From Bacteroidia bacterium (GTDB lineage: Bacteria; Bacteroidota; Bacteroidia; Bacteroidales; Prolixibacteraceae): DNA of 64,000 nt. Both the position numbers and the translations under genes were made by a program. Numbering within the stretch: position 1 is the stretch's first letter; each line of letters opens with the position of its first letter. Positions 2,747 through 53,535 of the stretch are shown piece after piece. The notes below the pieces were generated by a model that did no database searches, was not told where the DNA came from, and saw only the letters and a list, made by a program, of their open reading frames with translations. The stretch is taken from the NCBI GenBank assembly GCA_026391315.1, contig JAPLDT010000019.1:1-64000 (forward strand), written 5' to 3'.

Positions 2747-2786
2747 ACTTTAATTTTCATTTAAAAAAAGATAAAGAATTCAATCT

Positions 2787-2970
2787 AAGGATAAAGGATA
2801 AAGTAAAAAGGATAAAGTAAAGAACGCTGCGATCATGATTTCAGCCAATAATCAAATAATATTTTTAAACCAAATAACGCCTATCGTGCGGGGCTCACTT
2901 TATCCTTTTAACTTTATCCTTTATCCTTTATCCTTTATCCTTTATCCTTCCCCTTTTTAACTTTATCCTT
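2787..2970. repeat. inverted repeat with GGATAAA-type arms and a shared core
   Basis: The left arm is a short array of AAGGATAAAG units and the right arm is an array of CTTTATCCTT units reaching the stop codon of the next minus-strand gene. Between them is a core that starts AAAGTAAAGAACGCTGCGAT at 2814 and runs through TCATGATTTC. Nearly the same core recurs at 45721 and, in the other orientation and with different arms, near 44550 and 53405. The gap lies between uvrB and a HAD gene, both on the minus strand. Confidence 0.75.
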
Positions 2971-19276: not shown

Positions 19277-19603
19277 ATGGGAATAAAATTGGGAAATTAT
19301 TCGTTTATAGGACCGCTGGAATCGATTGACAAGATCAATGACAGATCAGGGATGTATGCAATAGTTTGCAAAGTGGGCAATGAAGATTTTTTGTTGGATG
19401 TCGGTGAGAGTTCAAAATTGCGGACACGAATTGAAAATCATGACAAGAAAGAGTGCTGGATTAAACACTGCAATGGAAAATTGACAGTTTTTGTTCACTA
19501 TACACCGTTTTTAAAACAACAGAAAAGAATATTGATAGAACATGAATTAAGGGAACTATTTCAACCAGGATGCAAAACAGAAACAAGTTTATGGTTCAAA
19601 TGA
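19277..19603 (+). CDS. small GIY-YIG-like domain protein
   Basis: A 108-residue soluble protein. SGMYAIVC, then FLLDVGESSKLRTRIENHD, follows the GIY...YIG-x-S-x-x-L-x-x-R-x-x-x-H pattern of the GIY-YIG nuclease fold, and a later IEHELRELFQPGCKTET matches the position of the C-terminal Glu/Asn motif. The catalytic status is unclear because the tyrosine of YIG is replaced (DVG). Its presence in a copper cluster is unexplained. Its stop codon overlaps the next start (ATGA at 19600-19603). Confidence 0.5.
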   Translation: MGIKLGNYSFIGPLESIDKINDRSGMYAIVCKVGNEDFLLDVGESSKLRTRIENHDKKECWIKHCNGKLTVFVHYTPFLKQQKRILIEHELRELFQPGCKTETSLWFK

Positions 19604-20260: not shown

Positions 20261-23200
20261 ATGTTTAATCGACTCGTCAAATATTTTCTTGAAAACAGGC
20301 TGATTACCTTTATTTTCCTCATCTCTTTCGTGGTGCTTGGAATGGTATTTATGCCGTTCAATTGGAAATCTGAATTCTTTCCACGTGATCCGATTGCGGT
20401 AGATGCCATTCCGGATATAGGTGATAATCAGCAAATTGTAGCTACAGAATGGATGGGGAGGTCTCCCAAAGATATTCAGGATCAGGTTACTTACCCTTTG
20501 ACAACCGCCCTGCTTGGGATCCCGGGCGTTCAAACGGTGCGCAGTACCTCCATGTTTGGAATGTCGTTCATTTACATCATTTTCAAAGACAACGTAGAGT
20601 TTTACTGGAGCAGGTCCCGGATTCTGGAAAAGCTTAACTCACTACCCTCAGGCACCTTACCCGCCGGTGTTCAGCCAACTTTGGGGCCTGACGCGACTGC
20701 ATTGGGTCAGATTTTCTGGTACACCCTCGAAGGGCGCGACCCCAAAAGCGGAAAACCAAACGGAGGCTGGAACCCTCAGGAATTAAGGTCTGTCCAGGAT
20801 TTCTATGTAAAATACGGTCTTTCAACTGCCGAAGGTGTTTCTGAAGTGGCCTCCGCAGGTGGATTTATCAAGGAATACCAGGTCGACCTGAACCCGGAAG
20901 CCTTGAAAGCATTCAATGTTTCGGCGATGGACGTGATGAATGCCGTGCGTAAAAGCAACCTGGACATTGGCGCTGAAACAATGGAATTGAACAATGTGGA
21001 GTACATTATCAGGGGTTTGGGCTATGTCAAAAACCTAGAGGATCTTGAACTTTCAGTTGTTACTGTTCGCAACAATGTCCCGGTACGCATCAAGGATGTG
21101 GCCCGGGTTGCATTTGGCCCGGCAACCCGTCGCGGTGGTTTGGACAAATCTGGTTCCGAAGCAGTTGGTGCTGTCGTTGTTGCACGCTATGGTTCAAATC
21201 CCATGGAGGTAATCAACAATGTAAAGGAAAAGATAAAGGAGATTCAGGCCGGTCTGCCCCAAAAAACTTTGCCCGATGGTACTGTTTCCAAAGTTACAAT
21301 TGTTCCGTTTTACGATCGCACCGGGTTAATTATGGAGACCATCGGAACCCTGGAATCTGCCCTTTCGCACGAAATCCTGATAAGTATTATTGTCATTATT
21401 GTGCTTGTCATGAACCTGAGGGCATCGCTCATCGTAGCCGGATTGCTACCAATTGGCGTATTGATGACTTTTATCCTGATGCGCATTTTTGGTGTAGAAG
21501 CCAATATCGTGGCCCTATCGGGGATTGCCATAGCCATTGGAGTAATGGTTGATATCGGGATAGTGGATGTTGAGAACATTCTCAGGCATCTGGAAATGCC
21601 GGAAAACAGAGGCATCAAAGGGAAGAAACTGATGTCGGTTATCTACCTTGCGACAACAGAAGTTCGGGCTGCTGTTGTCACTTCCATTGCCACCACCATT
21701 GTCAGCTTTTTGCCTGTTTTTGCCATGCAGGCGGCCGAAGGAAAGCTTTTTCATCCGTTGGCATTCACCAAAACATTTGCCCTGATTTCAGCCTTCCTTC
21801 TTGGCATCATTGTTTTGCCCACTTTGACGCATATCTTTTTCAATATTCGTGTTGATACAAAGAAAATTAGCCGTATTTGGAATGGCAGTTTGATGATCGC
21901 AGGTGTTCTTTTTGCTTTGATCTGGCACACATGGCCTGCCCTGGCCCTGACCGCGGTAGGTATCAATAACCTGCTTAGTGAACGCTGGCCGGAACATCGC
22001 AAAGAATTTCCGAATTACATCAACATTGCCATCACCGTGCTGGTGGCATCCTGGTACCTTACCATCGAGTGGCTTCCTTTGGGCGCTCACAACAGCGCCT
22101 TCGTCAACTTTCTGTTTGTTGGCGGAATTATTGCCATCATTCTTGCTGCCTTGATGTCTATGGTCCATTTTTATGAAAACATTATACGTTGGGCACTGGC
22201 ACACAAAAGTAAATTTTTGATCATCCCTGCCGTTACCTTATTGTTTGGACTGTTGGTATGGCTGGGATTCGACAAAACATTTGGTTTTATTGCTGCCGGA
22301 GCCGAAAAATTAGGTTGGAAAAGTTTCAGGCAGACAGCCATTTGGCAGGGACCCTCAAAAACTTTTCCGGGTACGGGAAAAGAGTTTATGCCATCCTTAA
22401 ACGAAGGTTCCTTCCTGTTGATGCCAACCAGCATGCCCCATTCAAGTATCGAAAAAAATCTTCAATACATCGAAACCCTCGACAAGCGACTTTCAGTTAT
22501 TCCTGAAGTGGAAGTAGCAGTAGGCAAGTGGGGACGTGTCAATTCAGCCCTCGACCCTGCACCCGTGCAAATGTTTGAGAATACCATCAACTACCGGTCA
22601 GAATACATTCTCGACGAAAATGGACAGCGGAAAAAGTTTAAAGTAGATAAGAATGGTGATTTTGTTTTGGATTTGCCGAGAATAAGAAATACAGTTGAAA
22701 TAGATAGAAATAAGGTAAAAATAAATGGAAATAAGGCAGAAATAAATGGAAATAAGGCAGATACTGATGGAAATACTATTGAAATAAATGGAAATAAAAT
22801 AGACACCAAAAATATTCAGGAAATTAGGTTTAATAAAGAGAATGAAATTTTTAAGGTTTTGATTGGTGATCATTGGATTCTTGTTAAAAAAGCAGACCCC
22901 AATATTTCAATCTATTTCAATCTATTTCAATCTATTTCAAAGAATATCAATGCATATCTGATTTCTGATAGCAATGGTGAGTATTTCCGTCAATGGCGGC
23001 CTGAGATTAAAAAGCCAAATGACATTTGGAACGAGATTGTAAAGGTGACCAACATTCCCGGATTGACCTCTGCTCCAAAGCTGCAACCCATTGAAGCCCG
23101 ACTGGTGATGCTTTCAACAGGCATGCGTGCGCCCATGGGCCTTAAAGTATTTGGTCCCGACCTGGAATCCATAGAGAAAGGAGGCATGCAGCTTGAGCAG

Positions 23201-24298
23201 GCCTTGAAAGAGGTGCCATCGATCAAAGCATCAGCCGTTTTCTACGACCGCGCCGTTGGTGCTCCCTACCTCGAAATCAAACTCAACCGGGAAGCGATGG
23301 CCCGCTATGGCATGACTGTCAATGATGTGCAGGAGATTCTTCAGGTGGCTGTTGGCGGTATGGCATTGAGCAATTCTGTCGAAGGGCGGGAGCGCTTCCC
23401 CATTCGTGTTCGGTATGCCCGCGAATTGCGCGATAATCCGGATGACCTCAAACGTATCCTGATCCCCGCAATGAACGGCGTACAAATTCCACTGAGTGAA
23501 ATTGCCGATATCGATTACACCCGCGGTGCACAGATGATCAGAAGCGAGAATACTTTCCTGAACGGCTATGTTATTTTCGATAAGAACGAAGGCAAAGCGG
23601 AGGTGGATGTTGTAGAGGAAGCAACAAATTTCCTCCAGCAGAAGTTGAGTTCGGGCACCCTCATTTTGCCTGTCGGAGTATCTTATAAATTCGCAGGAAA
23701 TTACGAACATCAGATGAGGGCTACCAAACGGCTGGCAATTGTCATTCCAATAAGTTTGCTCCTGATATTGTTATTGTTGTTTTTTCAATTTAGAACTTTA
23801 ACAGCTTCATTTATACATTTTTCCGGCGTCTTTGTAGCCTTTGCCGGTGGGTTTATCATGCTGTGGCTGTATGGCCAGGCCTGGTTCCTCAATTTTTCTG
23901 TGGCTGGTATAAACCTGCGGGATATGTTCCAAATGCATCCTATCAACCTGAGCGTGGCCGTCTGGGTCGGTTTTATCGCCCTCTTCGGAATAGCTACCAA
24001 TGATGGAGTAATAATGGGCACCTATATTCATCAGGTATTTGAAGACCGGCATCCTGCTACGGTTCACGATGTACGCGAAGCAGTGGTATCAGCCGGTATG
24101 AAACGTGTACGGCCGGCCATGATGACCACGGCTGTTGCTGTAATCGCATTGTTGCCTGTCTTGTCATCGAATGGCAAAGGCTCTGATATCATGATCCCTA
24201 TGGCCATACCCATGTTTGGCGGCATGGTGATTCAGGTGATGACGGTATTTGTTGTGCCGCTATTTCAGGCGATGTGGAGGGAGAGAGGATTGAAATAA
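20261..24298 (+). CDS. cusA: CusA/CzcA-type heavy-metal efflux RND transporter with repeat-derived insert
   Basis: The proton-driven inner-membrane pump of a Cus-type Cu+/Ag+ tripartite system. Visible features are the first helix (about 14-30), the porter-domain motif EWMGRSPKDIQDQVTYPL, the RND helices with GIAIAIGVMVDIGIVDVEN and the second helix bundle ending with GIATNDGVIMGTYIHQVFE. At 1345 residues it exceeds E. coli CusA (1047). Some of the excess is usual for Bacteroidota, but residues of about 810-900 are a low-complexity insert of NGNK repeats. CusC and CusB genes follow, after a four-helix-bundle gene. Confidence 0.92.
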   Translation: MFNRLVKYFLENRLITFIFLISFVVLGMVFMPFNWKSEFFPRDPIAVDAIPDIGDNQQIVATEWMGRSPKDIQDQVTYPLTTALLGIPGVQTVRSTSMFGMSFIYIIFKDNVEFYWSRSRILEKLNSLPSGTLPAGVQPTLGPDATALGQIFWYTLEGRDPKSGKPNGGWNPQELRSVQDFYVKYGLSTAEGVSEVASAGGFIKEYQVDLNPEALKAFNVSAMDVMNAVRKSNLDIGAETMELNNVEYIIRGLGYVKNLEDLELSVVTVRNNVPVRIKDVARVAFGPATRRGGLDKSGSEAVGAVVVARYGSNPMEVINNVKEKIKEIQAGLPQKTLPDGTVSKVTIVPFYDRTGLIMETIGTLESALSHEILISIIVIIVLVMNLRASLIVAGLLPIGVLMTFILMRIFGVEANIVALSGIAIAIGVMVDIGIVDVENILRHLEMPENRGIKGKKLMSVIYLATTEVRAAVVTSIATTIVSFLPVFAMQAAEGKLFHPLAFTKTFALISAFLLGIIVLPTLTHIFFNIRVDTKKISRIWNGSLMIAGVLFALIWHTWPALALTAVGINNLLSERWPEHRKEFPNYINIAITVLVASWYLTIEWLPLGAHNSAFVNFLFVGGIIAIILAALMSMVHFYENIIRWALAHKSKFLIIPAVTLLFGLLVWLGFDKTFGFIAAGAEKLGWKSFRQTAIWQGPSKTFPGTGKEFMPSLNEGSFLLMPTSMPHSSIEKNLQYIETLDKRLSVIPEVEVAVGKWGRVNSALDPAPVQMFENTINYRSEYILDENGQRKKFKVDKNGDFVLDLPRIRNTVEIDRNKVKINGNKAEINGNKADTDGNTIEINGNKIDTKNIQEIRFNKENEIFKVLIGDHWILVKKADPNISIYFNLFQSISKNINAYLISDSNGEYFRQWRPEIKKPNDIWNEIVKVTNIPGLTSAPKLQPIEARLVMLSTGMRAPMGLKVFGPDLESIEKGGMQLEQALKEVPSIKASAVFYDRAVGAPYLEIKLNREAMARYGMTVNDVQEILQVAVGGMALSNSVEGRERFPIRVRYARELRDNPDDLKRILIPAMNGVQIPLSEIADIDYTRGAQMIRSENTFLNGYVIFDKNEGKAEVDVVEEATNFLQQKLSSGTLILPVGVSYKFAGNYEHQMRATKRLAIVIPISLLLILLLLFFQFRTLTASFIHFSGVFVAFAGGFIMLWLYGQAWFLNFSVAGINLRDMFQMHPINLSVAVWVGFIALFGIATNDGVIMGTYIHQVFEDRHPATVHDVREAVVSAGMKRVRPAMMTTAVAVIALLPVLSSNGKGSDIMIPMAIPMFGGMVIQVMTVFVVPLFQAMWRERGLK
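22690..22960. repeat. GGAAATAAAT/ATTTCAATCT repeat inside the cusA coding sequence
   Basis: The left part holds tandem GAAATAAATGGAAATAAG units (about 22690-22800) and the right part tandem CTATTTCAAT units (about 22905-22940). The same units lie directly after the cusA stop (24290-24325), in the cusC signal-peptide region (24885-24935) and at the 3' end of hisC (45635-45660). The insert keeps the cusA frame open and codes for KINGNKAEINGNK and IYFNLFQSIS. Confidence 0.75.
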
Positions 24299-24443
24299 AT
24301 GGAAATAAATGGAAATAAAGGGGATCAAATGAAATAAGGAAATACATGTTAAAATTCTTCTGAATGTCAAATATTTAGGGTAAATTATAGTAAATAATTT
24401 TCTTATAGAAAGCTCTGGATATATTGAATTAAAGAATCTTGAA

Positions 24444-24803
24444 GTGTATCAAATTTCAAGGCAGCTATCCGCCATAGTATGGAAGATATTCTGCAGAATG
24501 AATTTAGAAGACAAAAAGTATATGGGAGATCAGTTCTTAAGATCGGCAGACTCAGTAGGAGCCAATATTGCTGAAGGTTACGGACGATACCATTATCTGG
24601 ATAAAGTAAGGTTTTATCACAATGCAAGGGGATCTCATTTAGAGGCATTTACACATTGGCTAGAATTACTATCGGAAAGGGAGAAAATTTCTATGGAAGA
24701 ATTTGAAACCATTCGTGTCAAAGCATCAATTCTGCAAATAAAGCTGAATAATTTTATTGCATCTACAACCAAAAAGGGAAGGGAAAAACATGATAAAATT
24801 TAA
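24444..24803 (+). CDS. four-helix-bundle protein (S23/IVP-like)
   Basis: About 120 residues of the four-helix-bundle family related to the protein encoded in some 23S rRNA intervening sequences. Typical segments are LEVYQISRQLSAIVW, FLRSADSVGANIAEGYGRY and LEAFTHWLELL. The given start is GTG at 24444, but ELKNLEVYQ reads in frame upstream as in relatives, and no ATG precedes it before the stop at 24381-24383. The true start may be a rare codon, or the gene may have lost its start. It separates cusA from cusC and overlaps the cusC start. Function unknown. Confidence 0.65.
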   Translation: MYQISRQLSAIVWKIFCRMNLEDKKYMGDQFLRSADSVGANIAEGYGRYHYLDKVRFYHNARGSHLEAFTHWLELLSEREKISMEEFETIRVKASILQIKLNNFIASTTKKGREKHDKI

Positions 24804-26307
24804 GAAACATACTGATCAATTATTAGAAACAATAAAAAGGAATATCGGTGTTCATTCTCAAAAAAACCATGTTCCAAGAAATCTCTTTTTATTTCTATTT
24901 ATTTCCATTTATATCAACCTATTTCAATCTATTACCACATACGCCCAAACTGATTCTCTGCAATATTACCTGGAAACTGCTGCCAAAAACAATCCCACAG
25001 TTTTGCAAAAATTTGATGAATATCAGGCTTCACTGCAAAAAGTACCCCAGGTTGGAAGCCTGCCGGATCCGGAGTTGAGCCTTGGGGTTTTCCTCAGTCC
25101 AATGGAACTGGTTGGTGGAAATCAGGTAGCCGATATCCGTCTGATGCAGATGTTTCCCTGGTTCGGAGTTTTGAAGAATGCCAAAGATGAAATGAGTTTG
25201 ATGGCAAAAGCGAAATACGAAACGTTTCGGGATGCTAAATTGCAGGTCTTCTACGATGTACAACGTACCTGGTACGAATTGAATAAGGTCAAACAGAATA
25301 TCCGCATTTCGGAGAAAAATATAGAGCTACTTCGCACAATTGAAAGATTGGCTGTTGTCAGGTTCAAAGCTGCTCCGCCAGGAAACAGTCCTGCATCAGC
25401 AGGCAATACATCATTTCAGCCCTCCCCAAAAAGTACTTCCAGCGGCACATCCGGCATGAATAGTATGGGAGGCAATTCGGGCAGTTCAGCCTCGGTTCAG
25501 GCCACTTCGTCCATGCCCGGCAACTCCATGGGATCTTCTTCCGGAAGCTCCGGCCTTTCGGATGTCTATCGCATACAAATCGAAATTGGTGACCTGCAAA
25601 ACAACATTGATTTGTTAAAAACCCGGTTAATTACAACAGCTGCACAGTTTAACGGCTTCTTGAACAGACCACAAAATACTATTGTTTCTCTCCCGGATAC
25701 TTTACTGGCCGAAAGATTCCAGCCTTCCTCGTTATCAATATCCGACAGCATTTTAAAAAACAACCCGATGTTGGGTATGCTTCAACTTGAACAGAAGTCC
25801 CTCGAATCCCGCAAGCAAATGGTTACCAGGATGGGCTACCCAATGGTTGGTTTTGGAGTAAATTATTCGCTTATCAATAAAAGTGCAATGTCCACATCGC
25901 CCATGAACGGGAAAGATATGATCATGCCAATGATCACCGCGACTTTGCCAATTTACCGGAAAAAGTATCGGGCAATGCGCGAAGAAACCGACTTTTTGAA
26001 ATCGGCCAATACCCAAAGTTACAAGGCTACTGCTAATTCGCTGCAAACCGAGTATTATCAGGCCATACAGCTGTATCAAGATGCACGGCGCCGGATAAAA
26101 CTCTATGCTGATCAATATTTGCTAGCCTCAAAATCACTCGATATCCTGTTCAAAAGTTTTGCATCATCAGGTGCCAGTCTCACTGATATTTTGCGTGTCA
26201 GGCAGCAGACACTTGATTATGAATACAAACAAACGGAAGCTGTTGCCGATTACAATACCTCAATAGCCTGGCTCAAACGATTAATGGCATTTTCACAAAT
26301 TCAGTAA
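24790..26307 (+). CDS. cusC: outer-membrane efflux protein, CusC/TolC family
   Basis: The outer-membrane channel of the Cus-type pump. The ATG at 24790 follows a purine-rich AAGGGAAGGG and is preferred to an upstream in-frame TTG. The N-terminus is long: a signal sequence ends at TTYAQ (about residue 48), and its hydrophobic core FLFISIYINLFQSI is encoded by the same repeat found in cusA. The mature part has the TolC-like helices, split by a Ser/Gly/Met-rich linker (about 197-260) with SGMNSMGGNSGSS. The 3' half contains LPIYRKKYRAMREE and TDILRVRQQTLDYEYKQTEA, typical of the family. Confidence 0.85.
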   Translation: MIKFKKHTDQLLETIKRNIGVHSQKNHVPRNLFLFLFISIYINLFQSITTYAQTDSLQYYLETAAKNNPTVLQKFDEYQASLQKVPQVGSLPDPELSLGVFLSPMELVGGNQVADIRLMQMFPWFGVLKNAKDEMSLMAKAKYETFRDAKLQVFYDVQRTWYELNKVKQNIRISEKNIELLRTIERLAVVRFKAAPPGNSPASAGNTSFQPSPKSTSSGTSGMNSMGGNSGSSASVQATSSMPGNSMGSSSGSSGLSDVYRIQIEIGDLQNNIDLLKTRLITTAAQFNGFLNRPQNTIVSLPDTLLAERFQPSSLSISDSILKNNPMLGMLQLEQKSLESRKQMVTRMGYPMVGFGVNYSLINKSAMSTSPMNGKDMIMPMITATLPIYRKKYRAMREETDFLKSANTQSYKATANSLQTEYYQAIQLYQDARRRIKLYADQYLLASKSLDILFKSFASSGASLTDILRVRQQTLDYEYKQTEAVADYNTSIAWLKRLMAFSQIQ

Positions 26308-26325: not shown

Positions 26326-28026
26326 ATGAAAAAAATCTTTTCAAATAAGTACATCCGCTTTAGCCTCATTCTGTTTGGAGGTATTTTTCTTGGCTGGATA
26401 TTATTTCACTCTTCTCCGACCAAAGAAGTAAAGCACGACCATGCGGCAGAAACGACTAAAGAAACAATCTGGACCTGTGCCATGCACCCTCAAATACGAA
26501 TGCACGAACCAGGTAAATGCCCAATTTGCGGAATGACATTAATTCCACTTATCCAAGGCGGTACAACGATCGATCCAGACGCAATTCACATGACAAAAGA
26601 AGCGGCTCAGCTGGCCAACGTCCTTACTTCCATCGTATCAAAACAAAATCCGGTGAAGGAATTACGTCTTTACGGCAAGGTTCAAGCCGATGAGCGGCTT
26701 TTACAAAGTCAGGTGTCGTATCTGCCTGGCCGAATTGAGAAATTGAATGTAAACTTCACAGGCGAACTGGTGCGAAAAGGACAAACATTGGCGGTTATCT
26801 ATTCTCCTGATTTAGTAACCGCTCAGCAGGAGCTGCTCGAAACAGCGGCTACAAAAGAGTCACAACCGGCACTTTATGAAGCATCAAAAGATAAACTTCG
26901 TCAATGGAAACTGACTGATATTCAGATTACATCCATCGAAACTTCCGGTAAGGTGAAAACTAATTTTGAAGTTTTTGCCAATACAACAGGTATCGTCTCT
27001 GCAAGACGCGTCAACACCGGAGACTATGTTTCACCTGGTTCAGTATTGTTTGATGTTGCCGATCTCTCTCACGTCTGGATCATGTTTGATGCTTATGAGA
27101 GCGATTTACCTTACCTATCTCAGGGACAAAAAGCTACATTTACTATTCAGGCCCTACCGGGAGTTGATTATTCCGGAAACATCACTTTTATTGATCCGGT
27201 GCTCGATCCTGTTACTCGAGTGGCAAGGGTTCGTATTGAGGTTGGTAATCAGGGTGGAAAACTGAAACCCGAAATGTTTGCAACCGGTATCGTCAAAGCA
27301 AATCTGAATGAAGATAAGGATAAGCTGGTAATTCCACGCTCCTCCGTTTTATGGACAGGCAAACGCTCGGTGGTATATGTCAAACAGACCAAATCCGATG
27401 AGCCAATTTTCAAAATCCGTGAGATAGAACTCGGCACAATGTTGGGAAACAGTTATGTGGTGATGAGTGGCCTAAAAGAAGGTGAAGAAGTCGTAACGCA
27501 GGGTGCATTTAGTGTTGATGCTTCAGCACAACTCGAGGGCAAACCGAGCATGATGAATCCTGAAGGAGGTAAAGTTTCATCAATGCCCGGGATGGATATG
27601 CCCGGCAATAATAAAGCCGGGGATACTAAAAGCCTGCCTGCTAAGGATATGCCGGGTGATACCAAATCTAAAGATGATAAAAGCATGCCTGGTATGGATA
27701 TGTCTGAAGTAGCAAAACCAACAACAAACGCCCTACCTACCGGGAATGCTAAGTCTCAAACCTTGCAGCACACGATGTTTGGCGTTTCCGGCAATTGTGA
27801 TTTGTGTAAAGCACGGATCGAAACTGCTGCCAAATCAGTGAATGGGGTAGCTTCAGCCGAATGGACAGCAGAGAAAAAACAAGTATCTGTTCAGTTTGAT
27901 CCGACAAAGACAAATTCTGATGCCATTCAGCAGGCAATAGTCAAAGTTGGTCACGATACCGAAAAATTTAAAGCTCCGGATGAGGCTTATAAGAAATTGC
28001 CGGGGTGCTGTTTGTACAGAAAATAA
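26326..28026 (+). CDS. cusB: CusB-type periplasmic adaptor with N-terminal metal-binding and C-terminal HMA domains
   Basis: The membrane-fusion subunit of the Cus pump. After an N-terminal anchor (about 11-28) comes a heavy-metal-binding domain (residues 48-74, TCAMHPQ and GKCPICGMTLIPL), then barrel-sandwich and beta-barrel adaptor domains. A Met/Asp/Lys-rich linker with repeated MPG motifs (about 415-475) joins it to a C-terminal HMA domain with Cys491 and Cys494 in GNCDLC, ending LPGCCLYRK. That HMA domain closely resembles the separate protein at 17544. It may pass Cu+ or Ag+ between chaperone, adaptor and CusA. Confidence 0.88.
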   Translation: MKKIFSNKYIRFSLILFGGIFLGWILFHSSPTKEVKHDHAAETTKETIWTCAMHPQIRMHEPGKCPICGMTLIPLIQGGTTIDPDAIHMTKEAAQLANVLTSIVSKQNPVKELRLYGKVQADERLLQSQVSYLPGRIEKLNVNFTGELVRKGQTLAVIYSPDLVTAQQELLETAATKESQPALYEASKDKLRQWKLTDIQITSIETSGKVKTNFEVFANTTGIVSARRVNTGDYVSPGSVLFDVADLSHVWIMFDAYESDLPYLSQGQKATFTIQALPGVDYSGNITFIDPVLDPVTRVARVRIEVGNQGGKLKPEMFATGIVKANLNEDKDKLVIPRSSVLWTGKRSVVYVKQTKSDEPIFKIREIELGTMLGNSYVVMSGLKEGEEVVTQGAFSVDASAQLEGKPSMMNPEGGKVSSMPGMDMPGNNKAGDTKSLPAKDMPGDTKSKDDKSMPGMDMSEVAKPTTNALPTGNAKSQTLQHTMFGVSGNCDLCKARIETAAKSVNGVASAEWTAEKKQVSVQFDPTKTNSDAIQQAIVKVGHDTEKFKAPDEAYKKLPGCCLYRK

Positions 28027-43159: not shown

Positions 43160-44437
43160 ATGCAAACCTATCGTTATCCGCCAAAAGAGAGCTGGGATCA
43201 GCTTACAACCAGAGCTACTGCAGATTATGCAGCCAAACTTCCAGTTGTGGAAGAGGTCATGCAAAATATTCGCGCCCGGGGCGATGCGGCAGTCAGGGAA
43301 TTTACAACCAAATTCGACAAAGTTCAGCTGGATGACTTCCTGATTTCAGAACTCGAAATTGCGAATGCTGAATCCCAAATAAAACCTGATCTGGCTTTGG
43401 CAATCCGCACTGCTGCGAACAATATCCGCACCTTTCATGAGGCTCAGAAAACAACTGTTCAAAAGGTCGAAACCCAACCGGGGGTGATTTGCTGGCAGAA
43501 AAATATGCCGATCGAAAAGATTGGACTCTATATTCCCGGAGGTTCTGCCCCACTTTTTTCAACTGTTCTGATGCTCGCCCTGCCTGCAATGATAGCCGGT
43601 TGCAAAGAGGTAATTCTTTGTACTCCACCGGATCCATCCGGAAAGGTCCATCCGGCAATTCTATTTGCGACAAAACTTTGTAACGTAAAACGCGTATTCA
43701 AAATTGGTGGAATTCAGGCTATTGGAGCGATGGCTTATGGCACTGAAACTGTGCCGAAGGTGCACAAGATTTTCGGCCCCGGGAACTCCTGGGTTACCGC
43801 TGCCAAACAATATGTTTCCATCAACACCTGCTCCATCGACATGCCTGCAGGTCCATCCGAGCTGGCGGTCGTCGCAGATATCTCGGCCAATCCGGCATTT
43901 GTGGCATCCGATTTGTTGTCTCAGGCCGAACATGGCCCCGACAGTCAGGTGCTCTTAGTCACGACTGAGGAATCATTGCTTGAGAAAGTTCCGGCAGAGC
44001 TTACACTCCAACTGGAACAACTTCCCCGGAAGGAGACTGCCGCATCCGCACTCGGTCACAGCAGGATGCTGCTCTTTGACTCCATGGAGACCGTTATGGA
44101 ATTCATCAATGAATATGCGCCCGAACACCTGATCCTTCAGACTGCCGATGCACACACCCTGGCTGAAAAAGTTACAAGTGCGGGCTCCGTTTTCATTGGC
44201 CATTTCACCCCGGAAAGTGCCGGCGACTATGCCTCAGGAACCAACCACACCCTGCCCACCAATGGATGGGCACGGTCAGTAAGCGGATTGAACCTCGACA
44301 GCTTTTATAAAAAAATCACTTACCAGGAGATCACCAAAGCTGGTTTACAACAACTGGGACCGATCATCGAAACCATGGCCGAAGCAGAACTGCTTCAGGC
44401 GCACAAGAATGCCGTTACAATCCGGATTAAGAAGTAA
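43160..44437 (+). CDS. hisD: histidinol dehydrogenase
   Basis: Oxidises L-histidinol to L-histidine in two NAD+-dependent steps; a zinc enzyme. The 425 residues contain IGLYIPGGSAPLFSTVLMLA, FGPGNSWVTAAKQYV, IDMPAGPSELAVVAD and the zinc/substrate region LLSQAEHGPDSQVLLVT, plus YAPEHLIL and GDYASGTNHTLPT. Length and motifs are normal. It is tightly coupled to hisG and separated from hisC by a repeat-filled gap. Confidence 0.97.
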   Translation: MQTYRYPPKESWDQLTTRATADYAAKLPVVEEVMQNIRARGDAAVREFTTKFDKVQLDDFLISELEIANAESQIKPDLALAIRTAANNIRTFHEAQKTTVQKVETQPGVICWQKNMPIEKIGLYIPGGSAPLFSTVLMLALPAMIAGCKEVILCTPPDPSGKVHPAILFATKLCNVKRVFKIGGIQAIGAMAYGTETVPKVHKIFGPGNSWVTAAKQYVSINTCSIDMPAGPSELAVVADISANPAFVASDLLSQAEHGPDSQVLLVTTEESLLEKVPAELTLQLEQLPRKETAASALGHSRMLLFDSMETVMEFINEYAPEHLILQTADAHTLAEKVTSAGSVFIGHFTPESAGDYASGTNHTLPTNGWARSVSGLNLDSFYKKITYQEITKAGLQQLGPIIETMAEAELLQAHKNAVTIRIKK

Positions 44438-44596
44438 TGTGAAAATTGGAAAATATGAAAATGTGAAAATTAGGGATGGGCAGATGCAAGAATTAAGTAA
44501 ATATTTAACCATAAAAATGTGTAAATAAACGCCGTGGCGTTCTTCATTTCCACATTTTCACATTTCCCAGTTTCCCAATTAAAATAATGATATAGC
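44438..44596. repeat. inverted repeat with TGTGAAAAT arms and a shared core (hisD-hisC gap)
   Basis: TGTGAAAATTGGAAAATATG-type units on the left pair with CATTTTCACATTTCCCAG on the right. The loop starts GGGCAGATGCAAG (44479) and ends GGCGTTCTTCATTTCC (about 44537-44552). Both loop ends recur in the element at 53310-53440. Reverse-complemented, GAAGAACGC also matches the cores at 2814 and 45721. Confidence 0.75.
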
Positions 44597-45652
44597 ATGA
44601 ATTTTAGTCTACAAAATATTACCAGAAAAAACATCCTCACCCTGCAGCCATACTCCAGCGCACGGGATGAGTATACTGGTGAGGCATCTGTTTTTCTGGA
44701 TGCCAACGAAAATCCGTTCAATGCTCCGTACAACCGCTATCCCGATCCGCGACAGTTGGCGTTGAAAAATCAGCTTGGCCTGATCAAGAAGATTTCGCCA
44801 GACCGCATCTTTCTGGGCAACGGCAGCGACGAGCCCATCGATCTGCTTTTCCGCGCCTTTTGCGAACCAGGCATCGACAATGTTGTCGCCATCTCCCCTA
44901 CTTACGGGATGTACCGTGTAGCCGCAGATATCAACAACATCGCCTACCGGGAGGTACCTTTGGAGGAAGATTTCAGTCTCAATGCAGATAAGATTCTTGC
45001 CGCTACAGATTCAAAAACCAAAATGATTTTCTTGTGTTCGCCCAACAATCCTACCGGGAATGCACTTAACCAGACCGAAGTGGTTAGAATCATCAGCAAA
45101 TTCAATGGATTGGTCGTTTTGGATGAAGCCTATATCGATTTTTGTCCGGAGAAAACACTATTGACCAATCTGGAGCAATATCCGAACCTCGTCATTTTGC
45201 AGACCCTCTCGAAAGCCTGGGGCCTTGCAGCCATCCGGTTGGGCATGGCCTTCGCCACCCCCGAAATCATTGCCATTCTCAGCAAAATAAAATATCCTTA
45301 CAACATCAACCAGCTTACCCAGGAAAAAGCATTGAAAATGCTTCAATTGGATGATCAAAAGGCAAAATGGGTGGAGACCATTCTTCAGCAAAAAGCCATT
45401 CTGGCAAAGGAATTGATAAAACTGCCAAATGTTCTGAAACTTTTTCCCAGCGATGCCAACTTCATCCTGGTAAGAACAACCGCGGCCAAAATGATTTACC
45501 AGGAATTGGTTGAGCGGAAAATTATTGTTCGCGACCGATCCAAAGTGGCCCTTTGCGGGGAAGCACTTCGGATTACTGTTGGAACTGAGGATGAGAATAG
45601 GATATTGCTGGTTGCGCTGAAAGAAATTGGGAAAATAAATGGAAATAAGTAG
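44597..45652 (+). CDS. hisC: histidinol-phosphate aminotransferase
   Basis: PLP-dependent aminotransferase converting imidazole-acetol phosphate and Glu to histidinol phosphate. The 351 residues show FLDANENPFNAPYNRYPDP, GNGSDEPIDLLFRAF, CSPNNPTGN, VVLDEAYIDFCP and the PLP lysine in TLSKAWGLAAIRLG. The last residues, KINGNK, are encoded by a GGAAATAAAT repeat unit that continues past the stop codon. Confidence 0.96.
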   Translation: MNFSLQNITRKNILTLQPYSSARDEYTGEASVFLDANENPFNAPYNRYPDPRQLALKNQLGLIKKISPDRIFLGNGSDEPIDLLFRAFCEPGIDNVVAISPTYGMYRVAADINNIAYREVPLEEDFSLNADKILAATDSKTKMIFLCSPNNPTGNALNQTEVVRIISKFNGLVVLDEAYIDFCPEKTLLTNLEQYPNLVILQTLSKAWGLAAIRLGMAFATPEIIAILSKIKYPYNINQLTQEKALKMLQLDDQKAKWVETILQQKAILAKELIKLPNVLKLFPSDANFILVRTTAAKMIYQELVERKIIVRDRSKVALCGEALRITVGTEDENRILLVALKEIGKINGNK

Positions 45653-45837
45653 AAATAAAGATATAAATTGTAATTGGGAAATGGGTGGGAAGTAAGGATA
45701 AAGGATAAAGGATAAAGGATAAAGTGAAGAACGCTATGATCATGATTTCCATTAACCCTTCAAACATTTCAAACCCTTTAAACCTTTCAAACTCATATCT
45801 CATGTCTTATGTCTCATGTCTTATAACTCATAACTGA
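45641..45837. repeat. composite repeat block (hisC-hisB gap)
   Basis: It contains GGAAATAAGTAGAAATAAAG units overlapping the hisC stop, four GGATAAA units (45694-45722), a core AAAGTGAAGAACGCTATGAT (45721-45740) continuing CATGATTTCC, TTTCAAACC units and TCATGTCTTATG units. The core differs from that at 2814 at only a few positions over 28 nt. Unlike the 2787-2970 element, no matching right arm of CTTTATCC units follows. Confidence 0.7.
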
Positions 45838-46962
45838 ATGAAAAAAGTACTATTCATAGATCGCGACGGCACTTTGATCGTCGAGCCGTCTGAGGATTTT
45901 CAGGTCGACAGCCTCGAAAAGCTTGAGTTTCTCCCGGGCGTATTCAGAAATTTATATGCGATCAGCAAATATTTTGATTACGAATTGGTGATGGTATCCA
46001 ATCAGGATGGCATGGGCACTGCGGATTATCCAGAAGAAAATTTTCACCTGGTTCAGGGGAAGGTATTGAAGGCTTTTGAGAACGAGGGAGTCACCTTCAA
46101 AAAGATCTTCATTGATTGCTCTTTCCCTGAGGATAATTCTCCTACCCGTAAACCAGAAATTGGCCTTTTGCAGGAATATTTGGATGATTCGTACGATTTA
46201 GCCAACTCTTTCGTCATTGGCGACAGGCTTACCGACGTGCAAATGGCCAAGAACCTGGGGTCGAAAGCAATTTATTTCGCTCCTGAATCAAGGGCCGATG
46301 ATCTGATCGACAGCAACCTATCCTCCTCCTGCGCCATGGTTACCGAAAGCTGGGAGGAGATATTCATCTTCCTCTCGGAGTTGGAACGCAAGGCATCCGT
46401 CAAAAGAGAGACCAAAGAGACCAACATCTTTGTGGAGATCAACCTGGCTGGCAAAGGCATCGGCAGGATTTCGACCGGACTGCATTTTTTTGACCACATG
46501 CTGCAGCAAATCTCCACACATTCAGGTTGCGATCTGACAGTTCAGGTTATCGGTGACCTTGAAGTTGACGAACATCATACGGTCGAAGATACTGCCATCG
46601 CACTGGGCGAAGTGATTCATAAAGCCCTTGGCAACAAGCGCGGTATCGAGCGATATGGCTTCTGTTTGCCGATGGATGATTGTCTGGCACAGGTTGCAAT
46701 TGACTTTGGCGGAAGACCCTGGCTAGTGTGGGAAGCTGAATTTCAGCGGGAATATGTGGGAGATGTACCGACAGAACTCTTTCATCATTTCTTCAAATCC
46801 TTCTCCGATGCCGCGCGTTGCAATCTGAACATATGGGCAGAAGGCACCAACGAACACCATAAAATCGAGGGAATCTTCAAGGCATTTGCCCGTTCAATAA
46901 AAATGGCAGTGAGAAAGGATCCGTTTCAGGACACACTTCCAAGCTCGAAAGGTACGCTTTGA
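45838..46962 (+). CDS. hisB: bifunctional histidinol-phosphatase / imidazoleglycerol-phosphate dehydratase
   Basis: A fused enzyme for two steps of histidine synthesis. Residues 1-165 are a HAD phosphatase ([14 protein letters not shown]; Asp7 and Asp9 by position) that removes phosphate from histidinol phosphate. Residues about 190-374 are the dehydratase, with [37 protein letters not shown] and [19 protein letters not shown], whose His and Glu residues bind manganese. The 374-residue length matches E. coli-type HisB. Confidence 0.96.
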
Positions 46963-52457: not shown

Positions 52458-53309
52458 ATGAAATCGAAAATTGCCATCATTTTACTGATCACCATAGTTT
52501 TATGTGGAAATCTGCTCGCTGCAGATCCTGTAATTTCATCCATGGATAAGGCCATCATTAAAAATAAACTGGATAAATTTTCCAAAGAGCGTTCCCTTCC
52601 CATTGGCGATCTGGTCCTGAAAATTGGGTTGGACTTTCTGAATACTCCTTATATCGGAAAAACACTCGACAAATCCAAAGTGGAGAAACTTGTCATCAAC
52701 CTTCATCAATTGGATTGTACGACTTTCGCCGAAAACTGCCTGGCGCTTGCCAGAACTGCAAAGAACGACAAGCCTTCTGTCGCCAGGTTTTGCTCTGAGC
52801 TGGAGGGTATCCGCTACCGTGGTGGAAAAATGGATGGTTATGCCAGCCGTTTGCACTATTTCAGCGAATGGATTGCCGACAATGAAAACCGGCACCATGT
52901 TCAATCGATGGCAGCCCAGATGGGAGGGAAAGTACTTCCGCTCAACCTTTTTATTATGAGTAAAAATCCAAAGGAGTATCCTCAACTGATCAATGATCCT
53001 GCTACTACCGCACAAATTCAGGCCATAGAAGAAAAAATCTCCGCTCAAAAATTCTACTACATTCCTGCGGATCAGTTCGAAAGTATTGAAAGCTTAGTCA
53101 AAGATGGAGACATTGTTACACTCACCACCTCTATTCCGGGCGTTGATGTCTCGCATGTGGGCATTCTGCTGAAGAAAGATGGGCATGTCCATCTTCTTCA
53201 TGCATCCTCTGCCGTTATGAAGGTGACAGTCAGCACCGAACCATTTGCCCAGTACCTCACAAAAAGCAAGAGAACAACCGGTGTGATGATTGCCAGACCG
53301 GTGGAATAA
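52458..53309 (+). CDS. DUF1460 (amidase-like, NlpC/P60-fold) exported protein
   Basis: A 283-residue exported protein. The ATG at 52458 gives a proper signal peptide (to about residue 21, LLAADP); nine codons upstream are also open. The DUF1460 pattern is clear: LNTPYIGKTLDKS, the likely nucleophile Cys in LDCTTFAENCLALAR, GYASRLHYFSEWIADN and a later VDVSHVGIL with the likely catalytic His, then LLHASS. Family structures are amidase-like and are thought to act on cell-wall peptides in the periplasm. Confidence 0.85.
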   Translation: MKSKIAIILLITIVLCGNLLAADPVISSMDKAIIKNKLDKFSKERSLPIGDLVLKIGLDFLNTPYIGKTLDKSKVEKLVINLHQLDCTTFAENCLALARTAKNDKPSVARFCSELEGIRYRGGKMDGYASRLHYFSEWIADNENRHHVQSMAAQMGGKVLPLNLFIMSKNPKEYPQLINDPATTAQIQAIEEKISAQKFYYIPADQFESIESLVKDGDIVTLTTSIPGVDVSHVGILLKKDGHVHLLHASSAVMKVTVSTEPFAQYLTKSKRTTGVMIARPVE

Positions 53310-53445
53310 TGTGGAAATGTGGAAATGAAGTTAGAGCAGATGCATGATTTCCGGATATTATTTGAAAAGATAATGATCAAATCGAGCATGTAGCGTTCTT
53401 CATTTCCACATTTTCACATTTCCCAATTTTCACATTAAATAGCTG
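53310..53445. repeat. inverted repeat with TGTGGAAATG arms and a shared core
   Basis: AATGTGGAAATGTGGAAATG pairs with CATTTCCACATTTTCACATT. The loop begins GCAGATGCATGATTTCC (53336) and ends GTAGCGTTCTTCATTTCC (about 53390-53407). Both loop ends match the hisD-hisC element. Read on the other strand, AAGAACGCTAC and CAAATAATAT also match the core at 2814-2880. Confidence 0.75.
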
Positions 53446-53535
53446 TCTTAACTAATTGTTAAATCCCTTACTCTTCCGAAACCTTGCAGGAAGTTAACCA
53501 GTATCATCTATTGAAATCATTAAACAATAGAAAAC

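Follow-up and report, generated by a model that had tools for sequence, protein, structure and literature searches.

Repeat arrays in and beside cusA

The window, the whole 64,000-nt stretch of DNA analysed here, comes from a contig of 144 kb; the genome measures 4.69 Mb and is assembled in 111 contigs, and the nearest relatives of its CusA are found in Bacteroidales-type metagenome-assembled genomes. It carries a set of cus genes on the plus strand. The cusA gene (20261–24298; PF00873, E 6.5e-169) encodes a heavy-metal RND efflux pump of 1345 residues, whose best solved relative is E. coli CusA 3k07. A gene for an S23 protein, the family of the 23S rRNA intervening sequences (24408–24803; PF05635, E 4.8e-20; start codon uncertain), is followed by a cusC-type outer membrane efflux protein gene (OEP, 24790–26307; PF02321; 505 residues from its ATG). 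The cusB-type membrane-fusion protein gene (26326–28026) encodes HlyD_D23, HMBD and HMA domains and has no array in the window copy. Just upstream of the cus genes lies a small ORF (19277–19603), which resembles GIY-YIG nucleases by eye and gave no match in a Pfam search.

Within cusA, two inverted arrays surround a non-repetitive core, an arrangement that we refer to as the cassette. The left array (22686–22800, plus strand) consists of GAAATA units that alternate between 10 and 11 bp, so that each pair spans 21 bp, or 7 codons, and encodes EINGNK-type repeats; TRF delimits it at 22686–22797 (period 21, 5.3 copies, score 112). The right array (22903–22942, plus strand) contains 3.8 copies of TATTTCAATC, a 10-bp unit that is the inverted form of the left-array unit, and encodes ISIYFNLFQSIS (TRF: 22903–22940, period 10, 3.8 copies, 100% match, score 76). 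The core between them (22801–22902, plus strand, about 100 nt) reads IQEIRFNKENEIFKVLIGDHWILVKK and is related to the cores of other long alleles. The loop that contains the cassette is 144 residues long. When compared with E. coli CusA 3k07, it falls in the second half of the periplasmic part, between the positions of residues 639 and 642.

These results refine a preliminary description of the locus. It had taken some 270 nt of cusA, near the start of the second periplasmic loop, to consist entirely of repeat units; two in-frame arrays of the unit types it named are present, while the core of about 100 nt is not repetitive, and the site can now be given by residue. The loop is lengthened as it proposed, by 76 residues over the usual 68-residue loop rather than by about 90, and the left array alternates between 10 and 11 bp instead of repeating a plain 10-bp unit. 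Its statement that the frame is unbroken is confirmed, since the ORF remains open across all 1345 residues despite both arrays. The same units also occur outside the gene, as it had said: the strict pattern GAAATARRTNGAAATA is found ten times in the window and in none of 100 shuffled versions, with six of the ten in cusA and four beyond it.

The cassette shares the palindromic repeat within an unbroken ORF with the Rickettsia palindromic elements (RPE), and its inverted arms resemble the terminal inverted repeats of MITEs. Its arms can pair as RNA in a predicted stem that is not strong (z −1.9, 8/200 shuffles). The cassette itself carries no PF05635 gene, which belongs to the neighbouring element at 24288–24929. 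An AlphaFold model of 391 residues around the loop was poor overall (pLDDT 54, pTM 0.34); in this model, the core is predicted to form beta strands with a local pLDDT near 80.

The S23 element occupies the space between cusA and cusC. Its left arm (24288–24348, plus strand) is a GAAATA-type array of GAAATAAATG units, at the start of which lies the cusA stop codon. Its right arm (24881–24929, plus strand) is in frame in cusC and encodes LFLFLFISIYINLFQSI, which we assigned by eye as the hydrophobic core of the CusC signal peptide. The two arms are predicted to fold as one long stem (z −3.6, 0/20 shuffles). The element therefore has the PF05635 gene and the complementary, stem-forming ends of a 23S rRNA intervening sequence (IVS), but it sits between cusA and cusC and not in an rRNA gene.

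The reading frame is kept in cusA because the spacings alternate between 10 and 11 bp. This alternation holds for all 29 neighbouring pairs of GAAATA units pooled from 13 cusA genes, against only 3 of 20 just after the cusA stop codon (Fisher 1.8e-10), where 8 of 11 non-coding arms have no open frame at all. Differences among the cusA arms are spread nearly evenly over codon positions 1, 2 and 3 (0.33/0.29/0.38), compared with 0.36/0.24/0.40 in the core and 0.25/0.12/0.63 in the flanks; these shares pool all pairs of the 13 genes, and the pairs are not independent. The arms thus appear, from these sequence comparisons, to behave as tolerated filler, in agreement with the tolerance of in-frame repeats claimed in the preliminary description.

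Elsewhere in the own genome, the unit is mainly intergenic. Loose unit matches number 28, against 0 for a reversed control, and strict ones 72, against 1 for the control. The stretches examined contain 34 GAAATA clusters: 28 between genes, two in cusA, one in cusC and three in other ORFs, the last three being single unit pairs only; in these stretches, multi-unit GAAATA arrays within ORFs were found in cusA only. More generally, 32 of the 38 short-unit arrays in 464 kb of the genome are intergenic, although ORFs of at least 100 residues cover 87% of it, and two of the six within ORFs are the cusA arms. Intergenic hairpins at other places of the window (2770–2970, 44420–44560, 45610–45850 and 53290–53450) are built of other units (AAGGATA, GAAAATGTG and others) and share by eye, beside their arms, a short inner motif of the GAACGCT...GATCATGATTTC type or parts of its complement.

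The long loop among relatives

For the comparison with other species, the best 80 of 316 CusA matches in named genomes were kept, and the loop was measured between the motifs QMFEN and RQWR; it could be read in 79 of the 80, no loop being found at L207. It is 68–69 residues long at 67 of these 79 loci and 123–199 residues at the other 12, so that alleles lacking the insert, which the preliminary description advised looking for in related strains, are the common form. Within these best 80 matches, 12 species besides the window carry the cassette at the same site. The plan of two arms and a related core recurs in all 12, in some in degenerate form: EINGNK/EINRNT-type repeats on the left, a IKYDKEKEIFHILVNDKW-type core, whose recognisable residues are kept across species, and YFNLFQSIS-type repeats on the right; at L212, the left unit differs and measures 54 bp. 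In the window and these 12 other assemblies, which come from several projects, the cassette lies within a single contig with its frame intact. Within the genus, the short form is present in G003, G006 and G007. The loops of G005 and G002 are long, at 118 and 119 residues, with neither repeat DNA nor S23, and G001 and G004 gave distant RND matches only.

The preliminary description had held that homologues of similar length and sequence at this site would point to an old protein segment rather than a repeat. Such homologues exist in 12 species, and their cassette is still made of repeats. 'Old protein segment' and 'repeat' are therefore not alternatives here, because the old, recurring segment itself consists of repeats. 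The native short-loop segment GSKYNPEKEGFRVIP finds its best fit in the cassette core in 14 of 15 long alleles, a fit equalled in 3/2000 to 394/2000 shuffles; in the odd one, L209, it fits best elsewhere (623/2000 shuffles). These alignments suggest that a native beta hairpin may have acquired the arms on either side.

Strong matches to a cassette profile (E ≤ 2.1e-9) were found in cusA only across 20 genomes, and the weaker ones are arm-like sequences, most of them with stops. The occurrence of one element in many unrelated genes of the same genome, which marks the RPE, was not found. Pfam searches with the cassettes returned 17 families with one or two weak matches each, the best of which (ElaD-SseL-like_C, E 0.00072) falls below the cut-off of its family. 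We considered whether the cassette could be a general mobile protein module and rejected this, as its strong copies are confined to cusA and the Pfam matches are inconsistent. One weak match outside cusA (G067:C308:24198–24314, L232; E 0.003) covers the cassette core and the right arm and lies in a 90-residue frame without stops. Strict unit pairs per genome vary widely, from two or three in all for L133, L147 and L148 to 34 for G007 and 202 for L143. A TRF screen of 111 cusA loci detected short-unit arrays within cusA in 13, namely 11 with GAAATA-type units, L212 with a compound unit, and G052; eight more have ordinary repeats only, of about two copies.

The long allele is scattered over the CusA tree. 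In a tree built from 105 CusA proteins without their loops, which contains 15 long rows and omits L207, it requires 12 changes (gains or losses), at least 10 of which are forced by well-supported branches, and 13 of 500 shuffled labellings needed as few. A single long-loop clade was rejected (dlnL 1240.6, p-AU 2.6e-6; 14 long against 73 short rows, L010 left out). Trees of the parts of CusA before and after the loop require 12 changes each. The 50 residues on either side of the loop, compared for 10 long rows, are mostly nearest to those of short relatives, as for L148 (92% to L162) and L200 (87.8% to L136); the exceptions, on the right side only, are the own sequence with L009 and L147 with L200. 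We found no support for distant donors having passed on a long block that spans loop and S23, because the part between loop and S23 does not group the long rows (12 changes). Given the likeness of the flanks to short relatives and the 12 changes for each part, we conclude that either short-tract exchange, perhaps between close relatives, or repeated gain of the cassette took place.

S23 genes and their repeat arms

An S23 gene lies just downstream of cusA in 9 of 13 long rows but in only 2 of 65 short rows (Fisher 1.9e-7). The rows comprise the window, the 79 named loci with a readable loop (from the best 80 of 316 matches) and eight loci of G genomes; at least 600 nt downstream were required, which excluded ten rows, two of them long, namely L147, where S23 is present, and L148, whose sequence ends after a left arm. 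Phylogenetically independent pairs gave five changes in the same direction, none in the opposite and two ties (p 0.0625). The exceptions fall on both sides: the repeat-bearing long alleles of L143 and L209 are followed by a junction that lacks S23, and at L149 and L158 the loop is short although S23 is present. A profile search recognised S23 in the flanks of 11 of the 111 cusA loci, and nine of these 11 belong to the 13 array-bearing ones. S23 genes of the cusA type (at least 50% identity, E ≤ 1e-12) were present in 9 of 34 genomes, each time beside cusA on its contig, and the best other S23 locus examined is 43% identical. The cusA arrays are weakly like the S23 arms of the same genome (17/20000 permutations at k=7, 1406/20000 at k=10), and in only 2 of 10 cases are the arms of the own genome the most similar; strong concerted evolution of arrays and arms was rejected, the likeness being only weak.

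The repeats reach further genes of these operons. Relatives without the S23 element join cusA to cusC directly and thereby present empty sites, and L209, L009 and L143, which lack it, have by eye an ordinary-looking CusC signal peptide. At the S23-bearing GAAATA loci that reach cusC, an array lies in the cusC N-terminus in 10 of 11; at the eleventh, L133, it was seen by eye, and L147 ends before cusC. Judged by eye, the right arm provides the core of the CusC signal peptide also at L134, L135, L137, L149, L158, L167, L194, L200 and L212. Further GAAATA arrays lie at the cusC–cusB junction of L200, L194, L135 and L137, and the cusB counterparts of L143, L167 and L322 contain in-frame arrays, which in L143 and L167 lie near residue 420, between the HlyD core and the HMA domain. 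No further arrays at the junction or in cusB were found in any of five short-loop control loci.

Some junctions show other arrangements. L133 and L194 keep the arms, but an internal deletion has shortened their S23 gene beside cusA. The cusA–cusC junction of L143 carries ACCCTGAAAGGGT-type repeats at the site of the S23 element of other long-loop species. At L012, in G007, a small hairpin of another unit, TTAGACACATAAGACACAATAG, follows the cusA stop codon directly and leaves no room for an S23 gene, and the last residues of CusA are read from this hairpin.

The association of S23 genes with inverted arrays extends beyond cusA. Among 39 S23 loci drawn from the own genome, its genus, a second genus of the same family and a further genus of the order, inverted tandem arrays flank 27, against 1 of 46 other ORFs, the control being the window's own ORFs. 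In a wider set of 71 S23 genes, which includes eight beside cusA, 47 lie between inverted arrays, or 55 with a lenient cut, and about a third of the S23 genes examined have no clear arms. The loci examined for arms were L058–L063, L065, L103–L132 and L235–L262; two of the sets are 30 loci each out of longer lists, one of which led to the G052 operon described below. The array unit tracks S23 identity at non-syntenic loci (Mantel r 0.45, 0/2000 permutations; 55 S23 genes passing the lenient arm threshold, 35 syntenic pairs dropped). Pairs of S23 proteins at least 70% identical share the unit in 11 of 14 cases, and pairs under 30% in 0.2–0.3%. Judged from these sequences, the pairing of unit and S23 gene at non-homologous loci is the trace that would be expected of a mobile element composed of gene and arms.

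A second cus operon, from another family of the order (G052, L322; G052:C118:600–9000), contains a different S23 gene between cusC and cusB (PF05635, E 3.1e-27), with a 7-bp array unit, AACCCGA. In-frame AACCCGA arrays are present in all three neighbours: in cusA at residues 591–621, a different site, the usual loop being short; in the cusC N-terminus, as 4.5 copies of 21 bp; and at the N-terminal end of cusB, immediately ahead of the heavy-metal-binding domain. This operon is a selected case, because it was noticed through an S23 match on the cusA contig.

Possible origins and related systems

Our analyses established the anatomy of the cassette, the frame filter, the recurrence of cassette and S23 gene at their two sites on different cusA backbones, the association of the two, the pairing of S23 genes with cognate units and the in-frame arrays of the G052 operon. 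The reading to which we give an even chance is that an operon-resident S23-array element is at work, whose repeats enter neighbouring genes and persist where frame and fold allow. S23 and its repeat would then be one selfish element, and the S23 protein may recognise the hairpin that its own repeat forms, as DNA or as RNA. Slippage, template switching or copying assisted by S23 could place further units in nearby genes of the same transcript, where they would survive only if the frame is held and the site is a loop, a linker or a signal peptide. Short-tract exchange might then carry the resulting alleles from one related cusA gene to another, or insertion might occur repeatedly. Several observations weaken this model: L143 and L209 lack S23, L149 and L158 combine S23 with a short loop, and the long loops of G005 and G002 lack both repeat DNA and S23. 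It is further weakened because a core related between lineages could reflect an old allele that was exchanged no less than fresh seeding, because the same-genome likeness of arrays and arms is weak and the corrected association reaches p 0.0625, and because the G052 operon is a selected case, about a third of the S23 genes examined have no clear arms and the cusA RNA stem is not strong.

A tentative alternative, with a substantial minority of our belief, is that a long-loop allele arose once, long ago, and was spread and lost by recombination between related cusA operons, with S23 as a linked passenger and slippage alone setting the copy number. The related cores agree with this, as does the fit of the native segment to the core in 14 of 15 long alleles, as if the arms had grown around a native beta hairpin, and linked loss or gain of both features would yield the association of cassette and S23. 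However, the loop flanks are mostly nearest to short relatives and the part from loop to S23 does not group the long rows; this alternative would thus need short tracts or close-relative donors each time. It also leaves the cognate arrays at other S23 genes and the G052 operon unexplained. The preliminary description had instead envisaged that an intergenic repeat was inserted into this gene; as one local event, this is not supported. That one of the genome's own GAAATA hairpins recently entered cusA in frame agrees with the 28 intergenic clusters of the unit in the stretches examined and with the lack of the cassette in the congeners G003, G006 and G007, but the two-armed cassette with its related core occupies the same site in 12 further species, among them L133, L147 and L148 with only two or three strict unit pairs. 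Strong profile matches are confined to cusA, and G007, rich in the unit with its 34 strict pairs, nevertheless has a short loop. The cassette common to other species largely refutes a recent insertion, which we now regard as unlikely.

Selection could also have produced a functional protein domain, such as a metal-collecting or partner-contacting extension, whose codons only resemble a repeat. The modelling of the core as beta strands, with a local pLDDT near 80, and its recognisable conserved residues would suit such a domain. The arms behave differently: their differences are almost even over codon positions, the loop varies from 123 to 199 residues, the array DNA (100% identity over 3.8 copies) is more uniform than selection on the protein would require, and the non-coding arms beside cusA have matching units. 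With the overall model also poor (pLDDT 54), we consider a selected domain improbable. Finally, the named cassette records are metagenome-assembled genomes, and repeats are prone to mis-assembly; an artefact of assembly or binning is nonetheless very improbable, given the intact frames on single contigs in the window and 12 other assemblies from several projects and the exact 10/11 alternation.

The S23-array elements might, in a wider and more doubtful reading that we put well below an even chance, constitute a previously unrecognised mobile system of Bacteroidales-type bacteria, in which each subfamily propagates its own unit as inverted arms and copies it in frame into operon neighbours. 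CusA, CusB and CusC of at least two unrelated cus operons would then be its visible record, and neighbouring genes would gain expandable loops, linkers and even signal peptides. That each S23 subfamily is paired with arms of its own unit offers a testable substrate for the S23 family. The cusA case indicates a route from a non-coding hairpin to protein, along which the sequence itself displays both the 10+11 bp frame filter and the sites taken up, namely a loop, a linker and a signal peptide. It also carries a warning for annotators, as a repeat arm can underlie a low-complexity stretch of such a pump and, in some cases, a signal peptide.

The S23-array element can be likened to the REP/RAYT system, in which a protein family is paired with its own palindromic repeat and gene-less copies of the repeat exist. 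S23, by contrast, is a small four-helix bundle, and we know of no transposase motif in it. RPE and their Wolbachia counterparts are described as palindromic repeats within ORFs that keep the frame and occupy the same site in orthologues (PMC3767692, PMC10969869). In these respects, they are like the cusA cassette; by these accounts, however, RPE measure 100–150 bp and occur in many unrelated genes, whereas the cusA arms are arrays of 10-bp units with strong cassette matches in cusA only, and the cusA cassette, unlike RPE as described, adjoins a protein gene with the same arms. The IVS of 23S rRNA is presented as an S23 ORF between complementary, stem-forming ends, patchy in distribution and called selfish or parasitic, and its proteins are said to be without known function (PMC4990558). 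The window element shares the ORF, the complementary ends and the patchy distribution. As far as that source goes, it differs from the IVS in that the window S23 copies reside in protein operons and not in rRNA helices, and in that the ends are tandem arrays of a subfamily-specific unit that is also found in frame in neighbouring genes.

Other coding or tandem repeats are more distant. PARCEL repeats have dyad symmetry, encode protein and have apparently spread by horizontal transfer (PMC2996958); likened to the cusA repeats by their description, they are 25-residue tandem motifs, and the abstract names no S23 gene. Inverted repeats within genes, perfect and up to 284 bp long, are reported for protein-coding genes of Nematomorpha mitochondria (PMC6649704) and resemble the cusA arms, but they are mitochondrial, and that report, in the part bearing on them, names no companion gene. 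The TAACTGA heptamer arrays of Beggiatoaceae, Cyanobacteria and some Bacteroidetes, with up to 43 copies (PMC4679880), are, like the GAAATA arrays, short tandem units and mostly intergenic. According to their description, they comprise one unit in direct repeats, mostly just upstream of start codons, whereas GAAATA forms inverted arms; the term 'S23' is absent from the text of that paper. Text searches of open-licence PMC papers brought up none with a title or abstract opening that describes S23 genes flanked by tandem-array arms.

The Avd protein of diversity-generating retroelements (DGR) is reported to resemble PF05635 (PMC10053308). This likeness, and the outcome of a locally variable protein segment, are shared in outline with the cus S23 system. 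No reverse transcriptase was found beside cusA and its S23 gene: the own genome has one PF00078 reverse transcriptase match, on contig C13 and not on the cusA contig C67. This reverse transcriptase (L324, G000:C13:41916–42488) follows a protein that looks phage-like by eye, the C-terminus of which is, again by eye, of the kind diversified by retroelements.
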